NCBI GenBank assembly: GCA_947624815.1
Contig: CANQME010000009.1
Span: forward strand, 1-45,870
DNA: 45,870 nt
Reading direction: 5' to 3'
DNA from: an uncultured Lachnospiraceae bacterium
GTDB lineage: Bacteria > Bacillota > Clostridia > Lachnospirales > Lachnospiraceae
The notes beneath the pieces were generated by a model. That model had not been told where the DNA came from, ran no database searches, and saw nothing but the letters and a program-made list of their open reading frames with translations. Shown here piece after piece: positions 29,786 to 35,743 of the stretch; the first letter of the stretch is position 1; every line of letters starts with the position of its first letter. The position numbers were made by a program, and so were the translations under genes.

Positions 29786-29814
29786 AAAAAGGGAACGGCC
29801 GCTAGGCCATTCCC
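29786..29814 (-). terminator. Terminator of the DUF5717-like operon
   Basis: A 10-bp stem with one mismatch (29791-29800 with 29805-29814), a 4-base loop that contains the stop codon of the last gene, then TTTTT on the minus strand. Confidence 0.88.
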
Positions 29815-30614
29815 CTGTATTCCTGCTTCCACGCCTCCAGCGTCTGTCTGGCGCCCTCCATCCGCCTGACCGGATCCTTAGCGAACATTTCCTCCAGCTT
29901 CTTCATTCCATCCGACTGCTCCGCCGTCTCCTTTGCCCTGGCGAAATCCTCATCCCACGCCGCCTTCAGCTCCTCGGTGACAATCGGCTGATAACGGTCC
30001 TTTAAGGAAATATCCGGATCCATCCGCGTCAGATGGTAGATCCGCTCCAGAACCGATACGTCCTTCAGCTTGCCGTAGGCCCGGTCGTAAGCGCTTAACG
30101 CCTTGTCGAACTGGAAGATCCTGGCGTAGCACGCGCCCAGATTGTTCCAGACCCTGCCCAGGAACGCGTCGTCCGCCTTCTGGGCCAGATAGGATTCCAG
30201 AATCTTCTCGTATCCGGCGATGGCCCGGCCGTACTGCTTGAAGCCGAACAGGTAATCCGCCTTCCGTTTCGCGTACTCGAGCGGCGGCAGCTTCCGAAGC
30301 GCCGCCACCTTCTGTCTCAGCCGGTTGATCTCGGCGGTGGTATAGTAATCGCATTCCTGCAGAAACAGAAACAGCAGCTCGTCCTGGTTCTCACCGCTCT
30401 TCATCCACCGTTCCAGCTTCAGGGCCGTATACCCCATGTCCAGCTCCTCGCGGATGAAATCCACCAGGTTCCGGTCCATAAAGCCGTCCAGCGCCAGAAG
30501 CGGGTGATTGTAAATGGCGTAGCAGAGCTCCTGGGAGGTATAGATATGGATCCCCAGGTTCTCGATAAAGAACGGATGGCTGACCTTTTCCTTTCTGCAC
30601 AGTATGACGCTCAT
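29802..30614 (-). CDS. TPR-like protein, third gene of the DUF5717/DUF5716-like operon
   Basis: A 270-residue soluble protein, mainly helical. Residues about 110-215 look like tetratricopeptide-type repeats (FKQYGRAIAGYEKILESYLA; WNNLGACYARIFQFDKALSAYDRAYG). The N-terminus (SVILCRKEKVSHPFFIENLGIHIYTSQE) recurs in conserved clostridial proteins of unknown function. Its ATG overlaps the stop codon of the Hsp70-like gene upstream (ATGA), so it is translationally coupled and likely a partner, perhaps a co-chaperone or scaffold. That role is inference from the TPR-like helices and gene order. Confidence 0.75.
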   Translation of the reverse strand: MSVILCRKEKVSHPFFIENLGIHIYTSQELCYAIYNHPLLALDGFMDRNLVDFIREELDMGYTALKLERWMKSGENQDELLFLFLQECDYYTTAEINRLRQKVAALRKLPPLEYAKRKADYLFGFKQYGRAIAGYEKILESYLAQKADDAFLGRVWNNLGACYARIFQFDKALSAYDRAYGKLKDVSVLERIYHLTRMDPDISLKDRYQPIVTEELKAAWDEDFARAKETAEQSDGMKKLEEMFAKDPVRRMEGARQTLEAWKQEYRGMA

Positions 30615-32119
30615 AGCATTACCTCTTGTCTGATGACCGCGCCGGTGGACGGATAGAATTCGCCGAAGCCCAGATCCTTCACCACCACAGCCATGGTATT
30701 TTCATCTAAGAATGCCACCTGAAGCTGAATCCTCAGCGTCTTGTCGTCCCGTTCCGGGAATCCCTCCAGCGTCAGCTTCACCACCTTCCGGCGCTTGGGA
30801 TCCGCCGGCGAGATGACAAATTCCAGATACTGCTGGTTGTCCAGGATGAATTCCTGCGTCGTCCTGGCCTCGTACCAGCTGTCGCCCGCCGCCGCCAGGA
30901 TCATCTGATCCTCCTGGTCCCGGCGCATGACCTTCATGGATACCGTTGTGTCCAGCCGGCCGTCGCAGACCAGCACATAGGGATACATCGTCTTATCCCG
31001 CTCCAGATCCGCTGCCTTGTACGCGGCTCCCTGGACAAACAGCGCCTGATCCACATACACCTTTCTCCTGGCGCAGACCAGCTTCATGAAGCCCGCCGCC
31101 CAGTCCTGCTTCTCGAAGCCCTTCCCCGTCAGGAAAACGGAGGAGAACAGCTTCTTCTGCAGGAATCTCTCGCCGCAGGAGCATAGGATCTTATCCGCCA
31201 GCTTCACGCCGGACGGGGTGCTTAAAATGTCCAGGTTAAAGCCTTCGTCCAGCTTCTCCCGGTCCGCCACCACCGTCACCTGGCGCATTCCCCGCTGGAC
31301 CTTCATCTCATAATAGCAGAGAAAATCCTCCGAAAGATCGAACATCCCCACCTGGTTGTTCCAGACCTCGCGCTTCTGGCTCAGGACATAGTAGAGAAAG
31401 CTCTCCGTATGGCTGATGATGCGGATCCGGTCCCTGGGGATCTTTAAGCGGTCCGCACAGTAAACCAGCATATCCATCAGCTTCGCGCTGATCCTGGGCA
31501 CCGTGACCACCAGCCTGCCGATGCGGCCGGAGTCATAGTCCGCCGCTCCGTCCGACGGCGCCTGCACGCCGCCGTCTTCCGTCTCCTGCTGCCCGTCCGC
31601 TTCCGCCGTCGCGGCTGCCTCTTCCATCCCGGACGTCTCCGTACGTCTGTCCGGCTCCGCCTGCCCGGCGGCCTTTGCCGTTCCAACCGCTTCCGCCTGC
31701 GCGGCCCGGCCCGCCTGACCCGCCGTTCCCGCGCGGCCTGCCGGCCCGAAGTCCTTCGCCGTACCGGATGCCGCTTCCGCCGCCCTGTCCGGCTCCCGCT
31801 CCGCGGCCTCCGCCCGGTCGGCCTCCCGTACCGCCGCGGCCAGCACGCATTCCAGGAACTTCTGCATCAGATCCAGTCCCTCGTAGCGGACGCCGCCGAT
31901 GGTGGCCGTCCCCTCCTTGCGCAGCAGCTTCAGAAGCTTGTCCACGATGACGCCGTCCCCCACAAGGGCGCCCGCATACGCGTCCTGGCCGATCAGCCAT
32001 ACGTCCTCGTCCTTTTTCTTGCAGATCACCGTGGGATAATTCAGTACCTCTCCCAGTCCGGCACAGCATACCTGCGTATAGGTATCGCATATGTCCAGAC
32101 CGATCAACCGTTTCTCCAT
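30611..32119 (-). CDS. Divergent Hsp70/actin-fold protein (DUF5716-like)
   Basis: A 502-residue protein that I recognise as DUF5716-like. By eye it follows the Hsp70 motif order: LIGLDICDTYTQV at 5-17 (DnaK has IGIDLGTTNS), PTVICKK...WLIGQDA near 29-47, LVVTVP, ISHTESFLYYVL, VGMFDLSEDF (DnaK: FDLGGGTFD), VFLTGKGF and VQGAAYKA. A C-terminal ~100 residues (KRRKVVKLTLEGFPERDDKT... VKDLGFGEF) resemble an Hsp70 beta substrate-binding domain. The glycines that hold ATP phosphates are replaced (CDT, SED), so ATPase activity is doubtful. An Ala/Glu/Gly-rich insertion lies at about 95-195. Start at 32119 (MEKRLIGLD) instead of 32164 because the fold begins there. TGA overlaps the TPR-like gene. Confidence 0.75.
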   Translation of the reverse strand: MEKRLIGLDICDTYTQVCCAGLGEVLNYPTVICKKKDEDVWLIGQDAYAGALVGDGVIVDKLLKLLRKEGTATIGGVRYEGLDLMQKFLECVLAAAVREADRAEAAEREPDRAAEAASGTAKDFGPAGRAGTAGQAGRAAQAEAVGTAKAAGQAEPDRRTETSGMEEAAATAEADGQQETEDGGVQAPSDGAADYDSGRIGRLVVTVPRISAKLMDMLVYCADRLKIPRDRIRIISHTESFLYYVLSQKREVWNNQVGMFDLSEDFLCYYEMKVQRGMRQVTVVADREKLDEGFNLDILSTPSGVKLADKILCSCGERFLQKKLFSSVFLTGKGFEKQDWAAGFMKLVCARRKVYVDQALFVQGAAYKAADLERDKTMYPYVLVCDGRLDTTVSMKVMRRDQEDQMILAAAGDSWYEARTTQEFILDNQQYLEFVISPADPKRRKVVKLTLEGFPERDDKTLRIQLQVAFLDENTMAVVVKDLGFGEFYPSTGAVIRQEVML

Positions 32120-32167
32120 GACACCCTTTCCCTTCCGATCGCTTATCCGCGGCCCCTGACCCACGGT

Positions 32168-35100
32168 CTACATCAGACTGAACAGTCCCTCGACTGCCGC
32201 CGTCCTCTTCACATATTCCTCCATGGCGTCCTTTAAGCCGTCCTCTTCCTTTCGGTTCATATAGACGGCCATCTGGTTCAGCAGCCGGAACCGGCTGTCC
32301 TCGTCCGCCGTCGCTTTCCGGTCGCAGGAAAGGCTTCCCTCCTCCATCAGCACCTGCCGGTCTCCCTGATGCTCATAGATCCGGTATTCCATGGTCTCCC
32401 CCTCAAACAGCACCTTCTGCTTGATGAAGACGCCCTGATACACCCGTTTCATGTCGTCGCTGTAGAACCGCTCCTCCTGGGGCCGGATGCGCACCTGCAG
32501 ATCCACCCTGGAATCCTTCCTGCCGATATACTGCAGGATCGCCTTGTCCGTGATCTCCTTCGGGATATGTACATGGGCCGCCAGCGGCTTGAAATGGGCG
32601 AATACCATCCCCTCCGCCAGCAGGATGTCCACAATAGCCTGGCACAGCTCCGTCTGCTCCGGATCCAGCTGCGTGAGTCCCGCGTAATACCTGGTCAGCG
32701 CCAGCAGATAGATCGTGGAAAGCTTCTCCTTCTCGATCGCCCCGCGGATCATGCCCTCCAGGTAGCGGAACACCTCCTCGCCGGCCGGTTTCCCCTCCAT
32801 GAAGTACTGGGTGCTCTTCTTCGTAAAATATGCCTTGACAATGCTTTCGCTGGTCTTCTTCCGCTCCATATACAGGGCGAATACCCGGTCGATCCGGTCG
32901 GTCCGGTCCGTGAACAGCATCTGCGCCAGGAGCCGTTCCTCCAGGTCATAGGTCTCCACCCGGTCCGTCACTCCCTGCAGCAGAAGCCGGTACATCTGTT
33001 CCGTGGAGCCGTTGAAATGCTCGCAGAGGTAGTCCAGGATCACGCTGTCCGCCTCGTCCTCCTCGAATACCGAATACGCCAGCTTCAGAAGCAGCTCGTC
33101 CTCGTCGAACAGTTCATTTAAGATCATGCGGCTGCAGAGACGGCGCAGCTTCTCCGGCGGCACCTGGCAGAAATACCTGCGGATCATGCCGTAGGCTTCC
33201 TTGATATAACCGTGGGCGATCAGCGCCTGGCACATATCGCTGCGCTGCTGCCTGGAAATGATCTCCTTGTCCGCCGACAGAAGCGGCTTCGCATTGACCG
33301 GCTCCGCATCTCCGCCGTCCGCGGACGTCTCCCGCAGATAATACCGGATGATCCGGCCGATCAGCTGCTTGCTGTACAGCGGATGGAGCTTCAGCTTGGT
33401 CAGAGCCCTGTCGATGATCTGGATATCCTCCGCCTCCGGCTCCTCCTTCTCCCCCGCCCTCCGGCATGCGCCGAGCAGAAGCATCGCGTGCTCCGGGTAC
33501 ACCTCGAAGCAGCGCTTCTCAAGCTCCGGCTTGTCCATCACCGGCGTCTCCTCATGCTCCACGTTCGTATAGCGGTTGCCGTATGCGTCCTCGAACAGCA
33601 GCCGGCTTCCCTCAAAGTAGACCGGCACATAGGCCACACCGTCCCGGATCGGGTAGACTCCCTGATCCGTCAGCTCCTCATAGCAGACGACCACATTGCG
33701 CATCCGCCTGTCCGCGCAGGCGATACGGCAGGAATTCAGGATTGACGGCAGGATCTGCGCCACCGGCTGATCCACCATATCCGGATAGATCATGGCGTCA
33801 TAGATCACCGCCAGGTTCCTGCCGATCCGCGCCTTCAGCACCTGTTCCACGGCAAAGGCTCCCATGGCCTTCTGATAATCCTGATAGACCCTGGACTCCC
33901 GGTCCATATACCGGATCATATTGGCGTAAAGGACCGCCCTGCTGTTCTGATCCAGATTATGGTCATAGGAAAAATACCGCAGAACCTCGTCCGGCATCAG
34001 CTTCCCGTAATCCTTCGGAAGCGAATACAGGAAATATTCATAAAGCCTTGTCAGGCTGATCTTCTCGGCCAGCGCCTTCTCGTACCAGACGAAATCCTTC
34101 CCGCGGCGGCAGTCGCCCCGGATCATCTGGCTGCAGACTGACGCCAGGATCTCCTTCTTCGGGAATTTCCCGTACAGCTCCTTAAGCATCCGGCACTGCA
34201 GAGGCTGGTAATTCCGGCTCGTGACCGCCAGCATGGCCGCCTTCACCGCCAGATCCTCCTTCACAAAGCCCCTCTTCGCGCCGAAATACAGCACCTGCGT
34301 CTCGAAGGCCCCGATCCCGAGCATCAGCTGCGGCGCGTCGTTTAAGACCGCCAGGGCCTGGGTATACAGAAACGGGCTGTGACAGCCCCTGCCGTAAAGC
34401 ACCTTCATCCGCACCAGCGCGTCCGCCGGATTCTCGAAGCAGTACTGCTCCTCGCAGCGGGAGAACACATAATACAGAAGGTATTCCCCCCGCCCGTCCT
34501 CCATGTACTTGCGGGACAGGCGTCCCAGGGACTCCCAACGCTCCATATCCGGCTCCAGGCGCAGATACACATACTGGTAGAGACAGTACAGATCAGGTCT
34601 CTGCTGCCGGTTCTCGATGATCCAGTCGCGGCACTCTGCCAACGCCTCCCGCGTCTTCTCCTCCCGCACGGCCAGCAGATTCAGTTCCGCCTCCAGAAGC
34701 GACAGTCTGACGGACTGGCCGCAGACAAGGCGGAGCTGCTCCGTCTGCTGAAGCATCTGGTTGATCAGCGTTTCGGCGTCCCCCGTATTGTTCTCGTAGG
34801 CCAGACGCAGCTCCAGGTATTTCTGCAGCATTTCGTTGCCGGCCTCGCGGGGATCGTCCTTCGCCCTTTCCGGCCCCTGGCGCACCTCGATCTCCACGGT
34901 GACGGATTCGTTCAGGGTCTCGAAGGTGATGCTCCCCAGATTCCGCCCCGCATGCAGCCCGGCCGGCGTCAGTTCAAAGGGGAACTCGTACACGCCCCCG
35001 GTAAAATCTTCATTTGTGAAATTCTTCCTGCCGATGCGGAGGAAGCTTCCGTCCACCCGCACGTTCACGGCCAGATAGCCCCATCCGCTGCGGTGCAGTT

Positions 35101-35743
35101 CGATCGTATCCCGGCTGTTCTGTTCAATGGAGGAATACTCCTTCCGCTGCTCGTCGATCCTTAACTCCACCGGCTTCTTCAGATTAAGGCCGATCATAAA
35201 CTGTTCCACCTGGCCGTAGCGGTTGCCGCGTCCTAAAAGCCCGTCGTACAGGCTGCGGATCTTCATGTCCTGCATGAAGGGCACGTCCGCGAAATCCCGG
35301 TATTCAAAGATCTGCACCGCCGTCTCGTAATCCTGTCTGGCGAGCGCGGCGAAATCCTTCGGCTCCTTCAGCTTCTTCAGAGCACGGCCGGAGATCCCCG
35401 GCTGCACCACGAACGAATAGGGAACCGTGAATTCCCCGCTGCCCGTGACCAGACAGAAGCTGCCCTCGATCACGTCACCATATTCCAGATATTCGCTGTC
35501 GATCTCATACATGACGTGGTTTCTGAGACCTCCGAAGGATGCGTTCAGTACCCGGACCCTCGGATTGGAAGAATAAGCAAGACCCTTGATGTGAAGTCCG
35601 TTCTGGCTGGTGATATACAGTTCCTTTTTTTCAAGTCCGCCCCCGTCGATCTCGACATGGTCCAGGCTTTCCGGCTGAATTGCGATCTCCGGTACCTCCA
35701 TGTCGATGATTCCCCTGGCCAGGCGGTTGATCCGTTCTCTCAT
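32168..35743 (-). CDS. Giant DUF5717-like protein, beta-sandwich plus helical solenoid
   Basis: A 1191-residue protein without signal peptide or membrane helix, recognised as DUF5717-like. Residues about 1-130 and 195-290 are beta-rich, Ig-like segments (ELYITSQNGLHIKGLAYSSN; GSITFETLNESVTVEIEVRQG). Residues about 300-1000 are helical and look like a long alpha-solenoid (repeated short LLxxAxxxL-type helices, ending in pairs such as YGMIRRYFCQVPPEKLRRLC). The C-terminal ~130 residues are beta again (RIRPQEERFYSDDMKRVYQG... YRIYEHQGDRQVLMEEGSLS). Function unknown. GGTGGAG precedes the ATG. It heads a three-gene operon with the Hsp70-like and TPR-like genes, 48 bp before the former. A scaffold or client-handling role is inference. 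Confidence 0.78.
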   Translation of the reverse strand: MRERINRLARGIIDMEVPEIAIQPESLDHVEIDGGGLEKKELYITSQNGLHIKGLAYSSNPRVRVLNASFGGLRNHVMYEIDSEYLEYGDVIEGSFCLVTGSGEFTVPYSFVVQPGISGRALKKLKEPKDFAALARQDYETAVQIFEYRDFADVPFMQDMKIRSLYDGLLGRGNRYGQVEQFMIGLNLKKPVELRIDEQRKEYSSIEQNSRDTIELHRSGWGYLAVNVRVDGSFLRIGRKNFTNEDFTGGVYEFPFELTPAGLHAGRNLGSITFETLNESVTVEIEVRQGPERAKDDPREAGNEMLQKYLELRLAYENNTGDAETLINQMLQQTEQLRLVCGQSVRLSLLEAELNLLAVREEKTREALAECRDWIIENRQQRPDLYCLYQYVYLRLEPDMERWESLGRLSRKYMEDGRGEYLLYYVFSRCEEQYCFENPADALVRMKVLYGRGCHSPFLYTQALAVLNDAPQLMLGIGAFETQVLYFGAKRGFVKEDLAVKAAMLAVTSRNYQPLQCRMLKELYGKFPKKEILASVCSQMIRGDCRRGKDFVWYEKALAEKISLTRLYEYFLYSLPKDYGKLMPDEVLRYFSYDHNLDQNSRAVLYANMIRYMDRESRVYQDYQKAMGAFAVEQVLKARIGRNLAVIYDAMIYPDMVDQPVAQILPSILNSCRIACADRRMRNVVVCYEELTDQGVYPIRDGVAYVPVYFEGSRLLFEDAYGNRYTNVEHEETPVMDKPELEKRCFEVYPEHAMLLLGACRRAGEKEEPEAEDIQIIDRALTKLKLHPLYSKQLIGRIIRYYLRETSADGGDAEPVNAKPLLSADKEIISRQQRSDMCQALIAHGYIKEAYGMIRRYFCQVPPEKLRRLCSRMILNELFDEDELLLKLAYSVFEEDEADSVILDYLCEHFNGSTEQMYRLLLQGVTDRVETYDLEERLLAQMLFTDRTDRIDRVFALYMERKKTSESIVKAYFTKKSTQYFMEGKPAGEEVFRYLEGMIRGAIEKEKLSTIYLLALTRYYAGLTQLDPEQTELCQAIVDILLAEGMVFAHFKPLAAHVHIPKEITDKAILQYIGRKDSRVDLQVRIRPQEERFYSDDMKRVYQGVFIKQKVLFEGETMEYRIYEHQGDRQVLMEEGSLSCDRKATADEDSRFRLLNQMAVYMNRKEEDGLKDAMEEYVKRTAAVEGLFSLM

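Follow-up and report, generated by a model that had tools for sequence, protein, structure and literature searches.

A 45,870-nucleotide stretch of an uncultured Lachnospiraceae bacterium (GenBank assembly GCA_947624815.1, contig CANQME010000009.1, positions 1 to 45,870 of the forward strand; hereafter the window) carries three adjacent genes encoding a DUF5717 protein, a DUF5716 protein and a TPR-like protein (together, the trio). DUF5716 is a homologue of the Hsp70 chaperones by fold and, through intermediates, by sequence, and orthologues of the trio occupy the first, middle and last places in a seven-gene, ancestor-like operon found in other families of the order Lachnospirales. As to its biochemical role, we lean modestly towards the trio being the retained core of an older Hsp70 machine, a nucleotide-independent complex in which DUF5717 would be the scaffold and the TPR protein the adaptor, and which would serve as a holdase, relay or assembly platform. 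We give about an even chance to a further reading, in which the near-universal complex of this family arose when excision of one subdomain (IIB) made the Hsp70 a nucleotide-free structural module, once the operon had shed its ATP-using Hsp70s and its GrpE-like factor; an ATP-driven machine would thereby have become a passive, family-defining assembly scaffold.

The predicted structure of DUF5716 (mean predicted local distance difference test score, pLDDT, 85.4) has the Hsp70 fold, with a nucleotide-binding domain (NBD) followed by the beta part of the substrate-binding domain (SBD-beta), and the 50 Foldseek matches listed for the model are all Hsp70-family chains or complexes containing one (best E 3.6e-15). 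Common descent with the Hsp70 superfamily is also found in sequence, by way of intermediates; a single DUF5716 sequence searched against the PDB sequences gave no relevant match. An earlier annotation made from the letters of the window (the sequence-only reading) had followed the DnaK order of motifs through both nucleotide-binding lobes and into a beta-type substrate-binding domain. Structure prediction and Foldseek, the check it proposed, uphold the Hsp70 fold with its SBD-beta; lobe II, in turn, is not intact, as IIB is missing.

The occurrence of the families was surveyed in samples of 150 family, 196 order, 243 class and 249 phylum genomes. Outside the family, 20 order loci were read among 57 positives, picked for spread and long contigs (profile A6 was built on 17 of the 20). 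The operon there runs, on one strand, DUF5717, an Hsp70 (H70a), a GrpE-domain protein, the DUF5716 orthologue, a second Hsp70 (H70b), an Hsp70 fused to VWA (Hsp70-VWA) and a TPR protein, so that between DUF5717 and TPR it holds three motif-intact Hsp70s, the GrpE-domain protein and one motif-dead Hsp70. All seven genes were recognised in order in 14 loci (in L034, Hsp70-VWA and TPR each lie in two frames), and the GrpE-like gene, the DUF5716 orthologue and H70b follow one another in all 20, with intervening frames before H70b in L044, L050 and L053. Of the 20 loci, 18 have H70a; in those without all seven genes, the operon ends were unrecognised or interrupted by frames or contigs. In L040, the GrpE domain scores 46.4 bits (cut-off 25.8), and the operon's TPR protein matches that of the window at BLASTP E 8e-16, the N-terminal non-TPR part included. 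The Lachnospiraceae locus lacks the three intact Hsp70s and the GrpE-like gene and keeps the dead Hsp70 with its two non-Hsp70 partners; the window's own genome retains a canonical DnaK and one other, unlinked Hsp70. This second, divergent Hsp70 (G000:C8:27705-29243, L155) is followed, past one in-frame TAG, by a protein with AAA+ Walker-type motifs, recognised by eye, a module distinct from the trio.

A tree of 80 rows, built by maximum likelihood in quick mode with the genome's own DnaK as root, joins family DUF5716 with the order orthologues (Shimodaira–Hasegawa-like approximate likelihood ratio test, SH-aLRT, 100) and these in turn with the intact H70b (100). The family sequences form a group of their own (99), to which the sequence from L034 is closest (97); 15 of the 20 order orthologues form one group and 5 fall with the family. 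In L034 the GrpE-like protein (L034:9514-10353) has only 279 amino acids (aa), compared with 546-645 aa in the other 19 loci, and may represent a halfway stage of partner loss. A profile of the operon's GrpE-like protein (A7) matched none of the 10 own-family genomes in the class sample. Its 35 matches across the 243 class genomes comprise 34 at the C-terminal end (most about 65-85 positions, in frames of 173-249 aa), which we read as ordinary GrpE rather than as the operon protein, and one in G761 (positions 62-176); a full-length operon GrpE-like protein was found in none of these genomes.

The motifs on which Hsp70 catalysis depends are gone from DUF5716. The replacement of glycines in phosphate loops 1 and 2, already pointed out in the sequence-only reading, is evident beside the DnaK of the same genome: GLDICDTYT against GIDLGTTNS in loop 1 and DLSEDFLC against DLGGGTFD in loop 2. 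Among 101 family DUF5716 sequences, the catalytic residues, which we take to be K70, E171, T199 and D201 in the usual numbering, were matched in 0, 1, 8 and 0 sequences, respectively; no sequence has all four and 92 have none. This family set combines 57 rows of A4, 29 sequences from L001-L033 and 15 from L054-L072, contains near-duplicates (L002 and L149 are identical in DUF5716) and leaves out L001 (the window itself), L012 and L021 (truncated starts) and L033 (wrong frame). The loci L054-L073 are 20 same-family loci, six picked for long frames and the others for divergence or contig quality. The 20 order orthologues are degenerate too (K70, G198, T199 and D201 matched in none, E171 in two), whereas the three intact Hsp70s of the operon agree with DnaK at 12 positions in all 53 of their 53 sequences, a set that leaves out the Hsp70-VWA of L034 because it is split between frames.

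Family DUF5716 has also lost part of its NBD. From the phosphate-2 aspartate to the glycine of the GAA motif it spans 91-110 residues in the 101 sequences, compared with 143-186 in the 20 order orthologues (170 in L034), 176 in the genome's own DnaK and, in the operon Hsp70s, 180-181 (H70b), 185 (Hsp70-VWA) and 211-216 (H70a). In the model, three strands run on from loop 2 (256-263, 266-275 and 280-289), and after a short helical turn a helix (302-320) stands ahead of the adenosine-motif strand (325-332). Judged by the lost length and this strand-to-helix topology of the model, the missing piece of about 75-80 residues is subdomain IIB. The sequence alignment places the gap somewhat earlier than the limits of IIB in DnaK, presumably about 229-306. 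On the tree, three losses would fall between L034 and the family: IIB and, at the locus, the GrpE-like gene and the intact Hsp70s. PMC4753570 describes GrpE as rotating IIB to open the nucleotide pocket; the dead Hsp70 of the family thus appears, from sequence and model, to have lost also the subdomain on which GrpE works.

The SBD-alpha lid is absent as well: 136-161 residues (median 140) follow the GAA motif in unfused family DUF5716, compared with 284 in the genome's own DnaK, and the model ends in SBD-beta. DUF5716 hence lacks the phosphate loops and catalytic residues, the complete NBD with IIB and the SBD-alpha lid of a canonical Hsp70. These losses bear on the idea that DUF5716 is a regulatory pseudo-Hsp70 of the Hsp110 kind, docking on the housekeeping DnaK for nucleotide exchange or substrate handover while TPR and DUF5717 recruit DnaK to one site. 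Hsp110-type exchange requires an ATP-bound NBD, and with K70 and D201 lost in all sequences, T199 in nearly all and IIB gone, we consider this rather unlikely; unlike Hsp110/Sse1, DUF5716 stops after SBD-beta and has its nucleotide site destroyed.

Conservation hints that the SBD-beta end carries a function. Of the 11 invariant columns in a 57-sequence DUF5716 alignment, 7 lie within residues 385-502 (P about 0.01, with the cut chosen afterwards), and the invariant columns include the D, G and G of a DLGFGE motif also present in the intact H70b of L040. Several observations weigh against the picture of a retained Hsp70 core. The mean majority fraction is 0.54 in SBD-beta and 0.49 in the whole NBD, a slight difference, so that client binding by SBD-beta is not demonstrated; on its own, the family profile gives no more than a marginal match to DnaK (best E 2.8e-4), which is why the sequence link needs intermediates; several long branches among the order orthologues leave the inner placements of the tree unsure; and a CIRCE-like heat-shock element was sought in the window and not found.

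The trio is almost universal in the family. PF18980 (DUF5716) occurs in 147 of 150 genomes, with one match each and no stops inside the match, and PF18983 (DUF5717) occurs in the same number, the three genomes lacking one being those lacking the other, a coincidence with a chance of 1.8e-6 if all genomes are assumed equally likely to lack a gene. The absentees are G022, G075 and G081, at 93-99% completeness. In 144 of the 147 genomes DUF5717 is the immediate 5' neighbour of DUF5716, on the same strand (the other 3 have the two on different contigs), and the three-gene order holds in 96 of 100 family loci, the missing gene lying beyond the locus or contig end in the other 4; the conservation of neighbours on which the sequence-only reading had staked its proposal is therefore borne out. 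The names carried by 80 family loci include Blautia, Fusicatenibacter, Robinsoniella and Lachnospiraceae bacterium, besides broader ones that refer, for example, to Clostridia, Eubacteriales or Bacillota. Of the 196 genomes in the order sample, 92 have a PF18980 match (over the cut-off in 86) and 93 a PF18984 match; outside the family, 55 order genomes have both, 2 only PF18980 and 3 only PF18984. PF18984 exceeds the cut-off in 10 of 243 class genomes, all of the own family (one more match falls below), and DUF5717_N in none of the 230 class-sample genomes from outside the order (one below the cut-off). Four of 249 phylum genomes, all of the own family, hold PF18980, and the same four hold PF18983 over the cut-off, with one further match below it. 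Lachnospiraceae are a main group of human gut bacteria, and that 147 of 150 sampled genomes carry a gene set for which no function has been described leaves a gap in what is understood of these abundant gut inhabitants.

The genes flanking the trio vary among the loci looked at: L055 and L066 have valyl-tRNA synthetase, L078 and L140 adenylosuccinate lyase. A possible fourth component, encoded downstream and about 880 aa long, was rejected, as it is valyl-tRNA synthetase in both loci scanned. Directly downstream of the trio in L092 (L092:11069-18904) lie four Hsp70-like proteins, three with GIDFGTTYS or GVDFGTCYS loops and one more divergent, together with a charged protein of 442 aa, probably a coiled coil, that has no match in Pfam. 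We do not count these Hsp70s as retained ancestral partners: their loops and layout are unlike those of the seven-gene operon, and they occur in one of 100 loci.

In the model of DUF5717 (pLDDT 86.1, predicted template modelling score 0.59), two beta-sandwiches of the PapD/ASH-like type (about aa 17-115 and 189-290) are accompanied by a long helical solenoid, which carries a beta insert, and by a beta-domain at the C-terminus. Structure comparison gave good coverage for residues 17-291 only, and the Foldseek matches of the solenoid (SKI complex, UNC-45) have query TM-scores of 0.15 or less. In most family genomes DUF5717 is one protein of about 1100-1240 aa; shorter frames exist (for example, 898 aa in G149), and many order genomes encode it as two pieces, an N-terminal one of about 390-480 aa and another of about 900 aa. 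Some family genomes, G106 and G574 among them, have a DUF5717 of about 1090-1150 aa, some 50-100 residues below the usual 1190. The sandwiches, together with wall-related neighbours in the window (an Amidase_3 and SPOR protein and a PG_binding_1 protein), could point to a family-specific platform for envelope or cell-wall assembly, on which the PapD-like domains bind extended chains and the Hsp70 part is a structural brick. As neighbour genes differ between the examined loci, which carry valyl-tRNA synthetase or adenylosuccinate lyase, wall genes are not seen as conserved context, and we hold such a platform to be distinctly improbable.

Physical coupling within the trio is suggested by fusion. 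Frames of at least 690 aa occur in 6 of the 147 genomes, and all six combine DUF5716 with TPR (684-723 aa when counted from the first start codon). When the fused state is mapped on a tree of the DUF5716 portion, at least three changes are required; the fusion therefore arose more than once or was repeatedly undone. That the trio is a decaying remnant without function might be read from its lost partners, catalytic residues and subdomain; against this, it is kept in 147 of 150 genomes with no stops in the DUF5716 match, the gene order is preserved, the TPR fusion recurs and model confidence is high, and we find a remnant hardly credible.

Under the retained-core reading that we favour, DUF5716 would no longer run an ATP cycle and would instead present an SBD-beta that is fixed and has no lid, carried by an NBD-shaped body that docks on the solenoid of DUF5717. 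The TPR protein would link it to clients or to another chaperone, and the complex would hold or present particular proteins, as holdase, relay or assembly platform, without refolding them. The trio would then be a clear evolutionary case of a chaperone that lost its motor but retained the other parts of its machine, and sister families offer the intact version for direct comparison.

In the window, the trio (Table 1) matches Pfam with 344.5 bits for DUF5716 and 874.1 and 291.8 bits for DUF5717, over cut-offs of 34.7, 25 and 25; in NCBIfam, DUF5716 has no match over the cut-off and DUF5717 no match at all. The open reading frames given in the sequence-only reading agree with the list of frames, its 1191-residue protein being the DUF5717 protein directly 5' of DUF5716. 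The two genes are spaced by 48 bases, and the TPR gene, which lies just beyond the span 30611..35743 given in that reading, overlaps the DUF5716 stop by 4 bases (ATGA). With a divergent DUF4364 gene upstream and a terminator-like stem after the TPR gene, the three genes probably form one transcription unit; six terminator-like sites were found in the region where 3.5 are expected, which makes the stem-loop weak by itself. An in-frame GTG at 32164 is a possible alternative start of DUF5716, judged weaker than the ATG. The columns of the low-complexity insertion are empty in the other 12 rows of the alignment, and the insertion is absent from the relative L066 (63% identical). DUF5716 is longer in the window's genus (502 aa here and 519 aa in the same-genus relative L017, compared with roughly 380-440 aa in most others), an excess that in the window includes this NBD insertion.

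Table 1 Trio genes and associated features, in window coordinates
Feature	Position	Strand	Description
DUF5717 protein	32168..35743	-	1191 aa; Pfam DUF5717_N E 1.2e-262, DUF5717 E 7.7e-87
DUF5716 protein	30611..32119	-	502 aa from ATG at 32119; Pfam PF18980 (DUF5716_C) E 5.2e-103, residues 202-502
TPR-like protein (putative adaptor)	29802..30614	-	270 aa; TPR_12 E 6e-6, under the Pfam cut-off
Gly/Ala/Glu-rich low-complexity insertion in DUF5716 (about aa 128-190)	31550..31738	-	Predicted disordered, pLDDT <50
Intrinsic-terminator-like stem-loop just 3' of the TPR gene	29789..29816	-	12 pairs, tail TTTCTATGCG

DUF5716_C (PF18980) and DUF5717 (PF18983, PF18984), whose Pfam cut-offs the window proteins far exceed, are families without an assigned function; their Hsp70 relationship and ancestral operon are worked out here. 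In the literature searched, which excluded most papers of subscription journals, the term 'DUF5717' was found in no paper and 'DUF5716' in one, whose title concerns curcuma and mismatch repair. Among the matches listed there for these families, for operons combining several Hsp70s with GrpE and VWA, and for non-canonical Hsp70s, none describes the trio or the seven-gene system, and no paper on an Hsp70 lacking IIB was found in this literature.

Known systems share parts of this arrangement. As described by Kaur et al. 2020 (PMC7159879), one variant of the GAP1-N2 systems holds operonic HSP70 and GrpE, a subset with a second HSP70 without a peptide-binding domain, and a fibronectin type III (FNIII) protein fused to DnaJ or TPR. 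The Hsp70s, GrpE domain, VWA, TPR and beta-sandwich protein of the ancestor-like operon thus recur there, and two L040 proteins, H70b (E 4.4e-10) and Hsp70-VWA (E 2.4e-7), match PDC-M61B, a candidate defence model, over about 190 residues. Both points would suit a system for conflict or defence that is related to this GAP1-N2 variant. Those systems, however, are centred on GTPases, of which none was found in the window trio or among the seven L040 proteins, and the L040-type operon holds four Hsp70s, one with VWA. PADLOC 2.0.0 returned no family for any trio protein at E up to 0.001 and no match for the DUF5716, GrpE-like, H70a and DUF5717 proteins of L040, and DUF5716 is near-universal and single-copy in the family, unlike patchy defence genes; a defence role is thus, in our view, very unlikely. 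CnuD of the CoCoNuTs, as described in PMC11090510, is likewise an operon-fixed protein with Hsp70-like NBD and SBD and partly degenerate motifs; CoCoNuTs are restriction systems with McrB-type GTPases and nucleases, neither of which appears in the Pfam results for the trio.

A Pfam search confined to the three trio proteins (E up to 5) listed no J domain; J-proteins encoded by other genes lay outside this search. The nearest functional parallel is Ssz1 of the ribosome-associated complex, which PMC7083937 describes as lidless, not hydrolysing ATP and contacting nascent chains ahead of Ssb. DUF5716 is lidless too, and Ssz1 is among the best structural matches of its model. Ssz1, by contrast, binds ATP and pairs with the J-protein Zuo1, whereas DUF5716, devoid of IIB and of the phosphate loops, has DUF5717 and the TPR protein as its partners.

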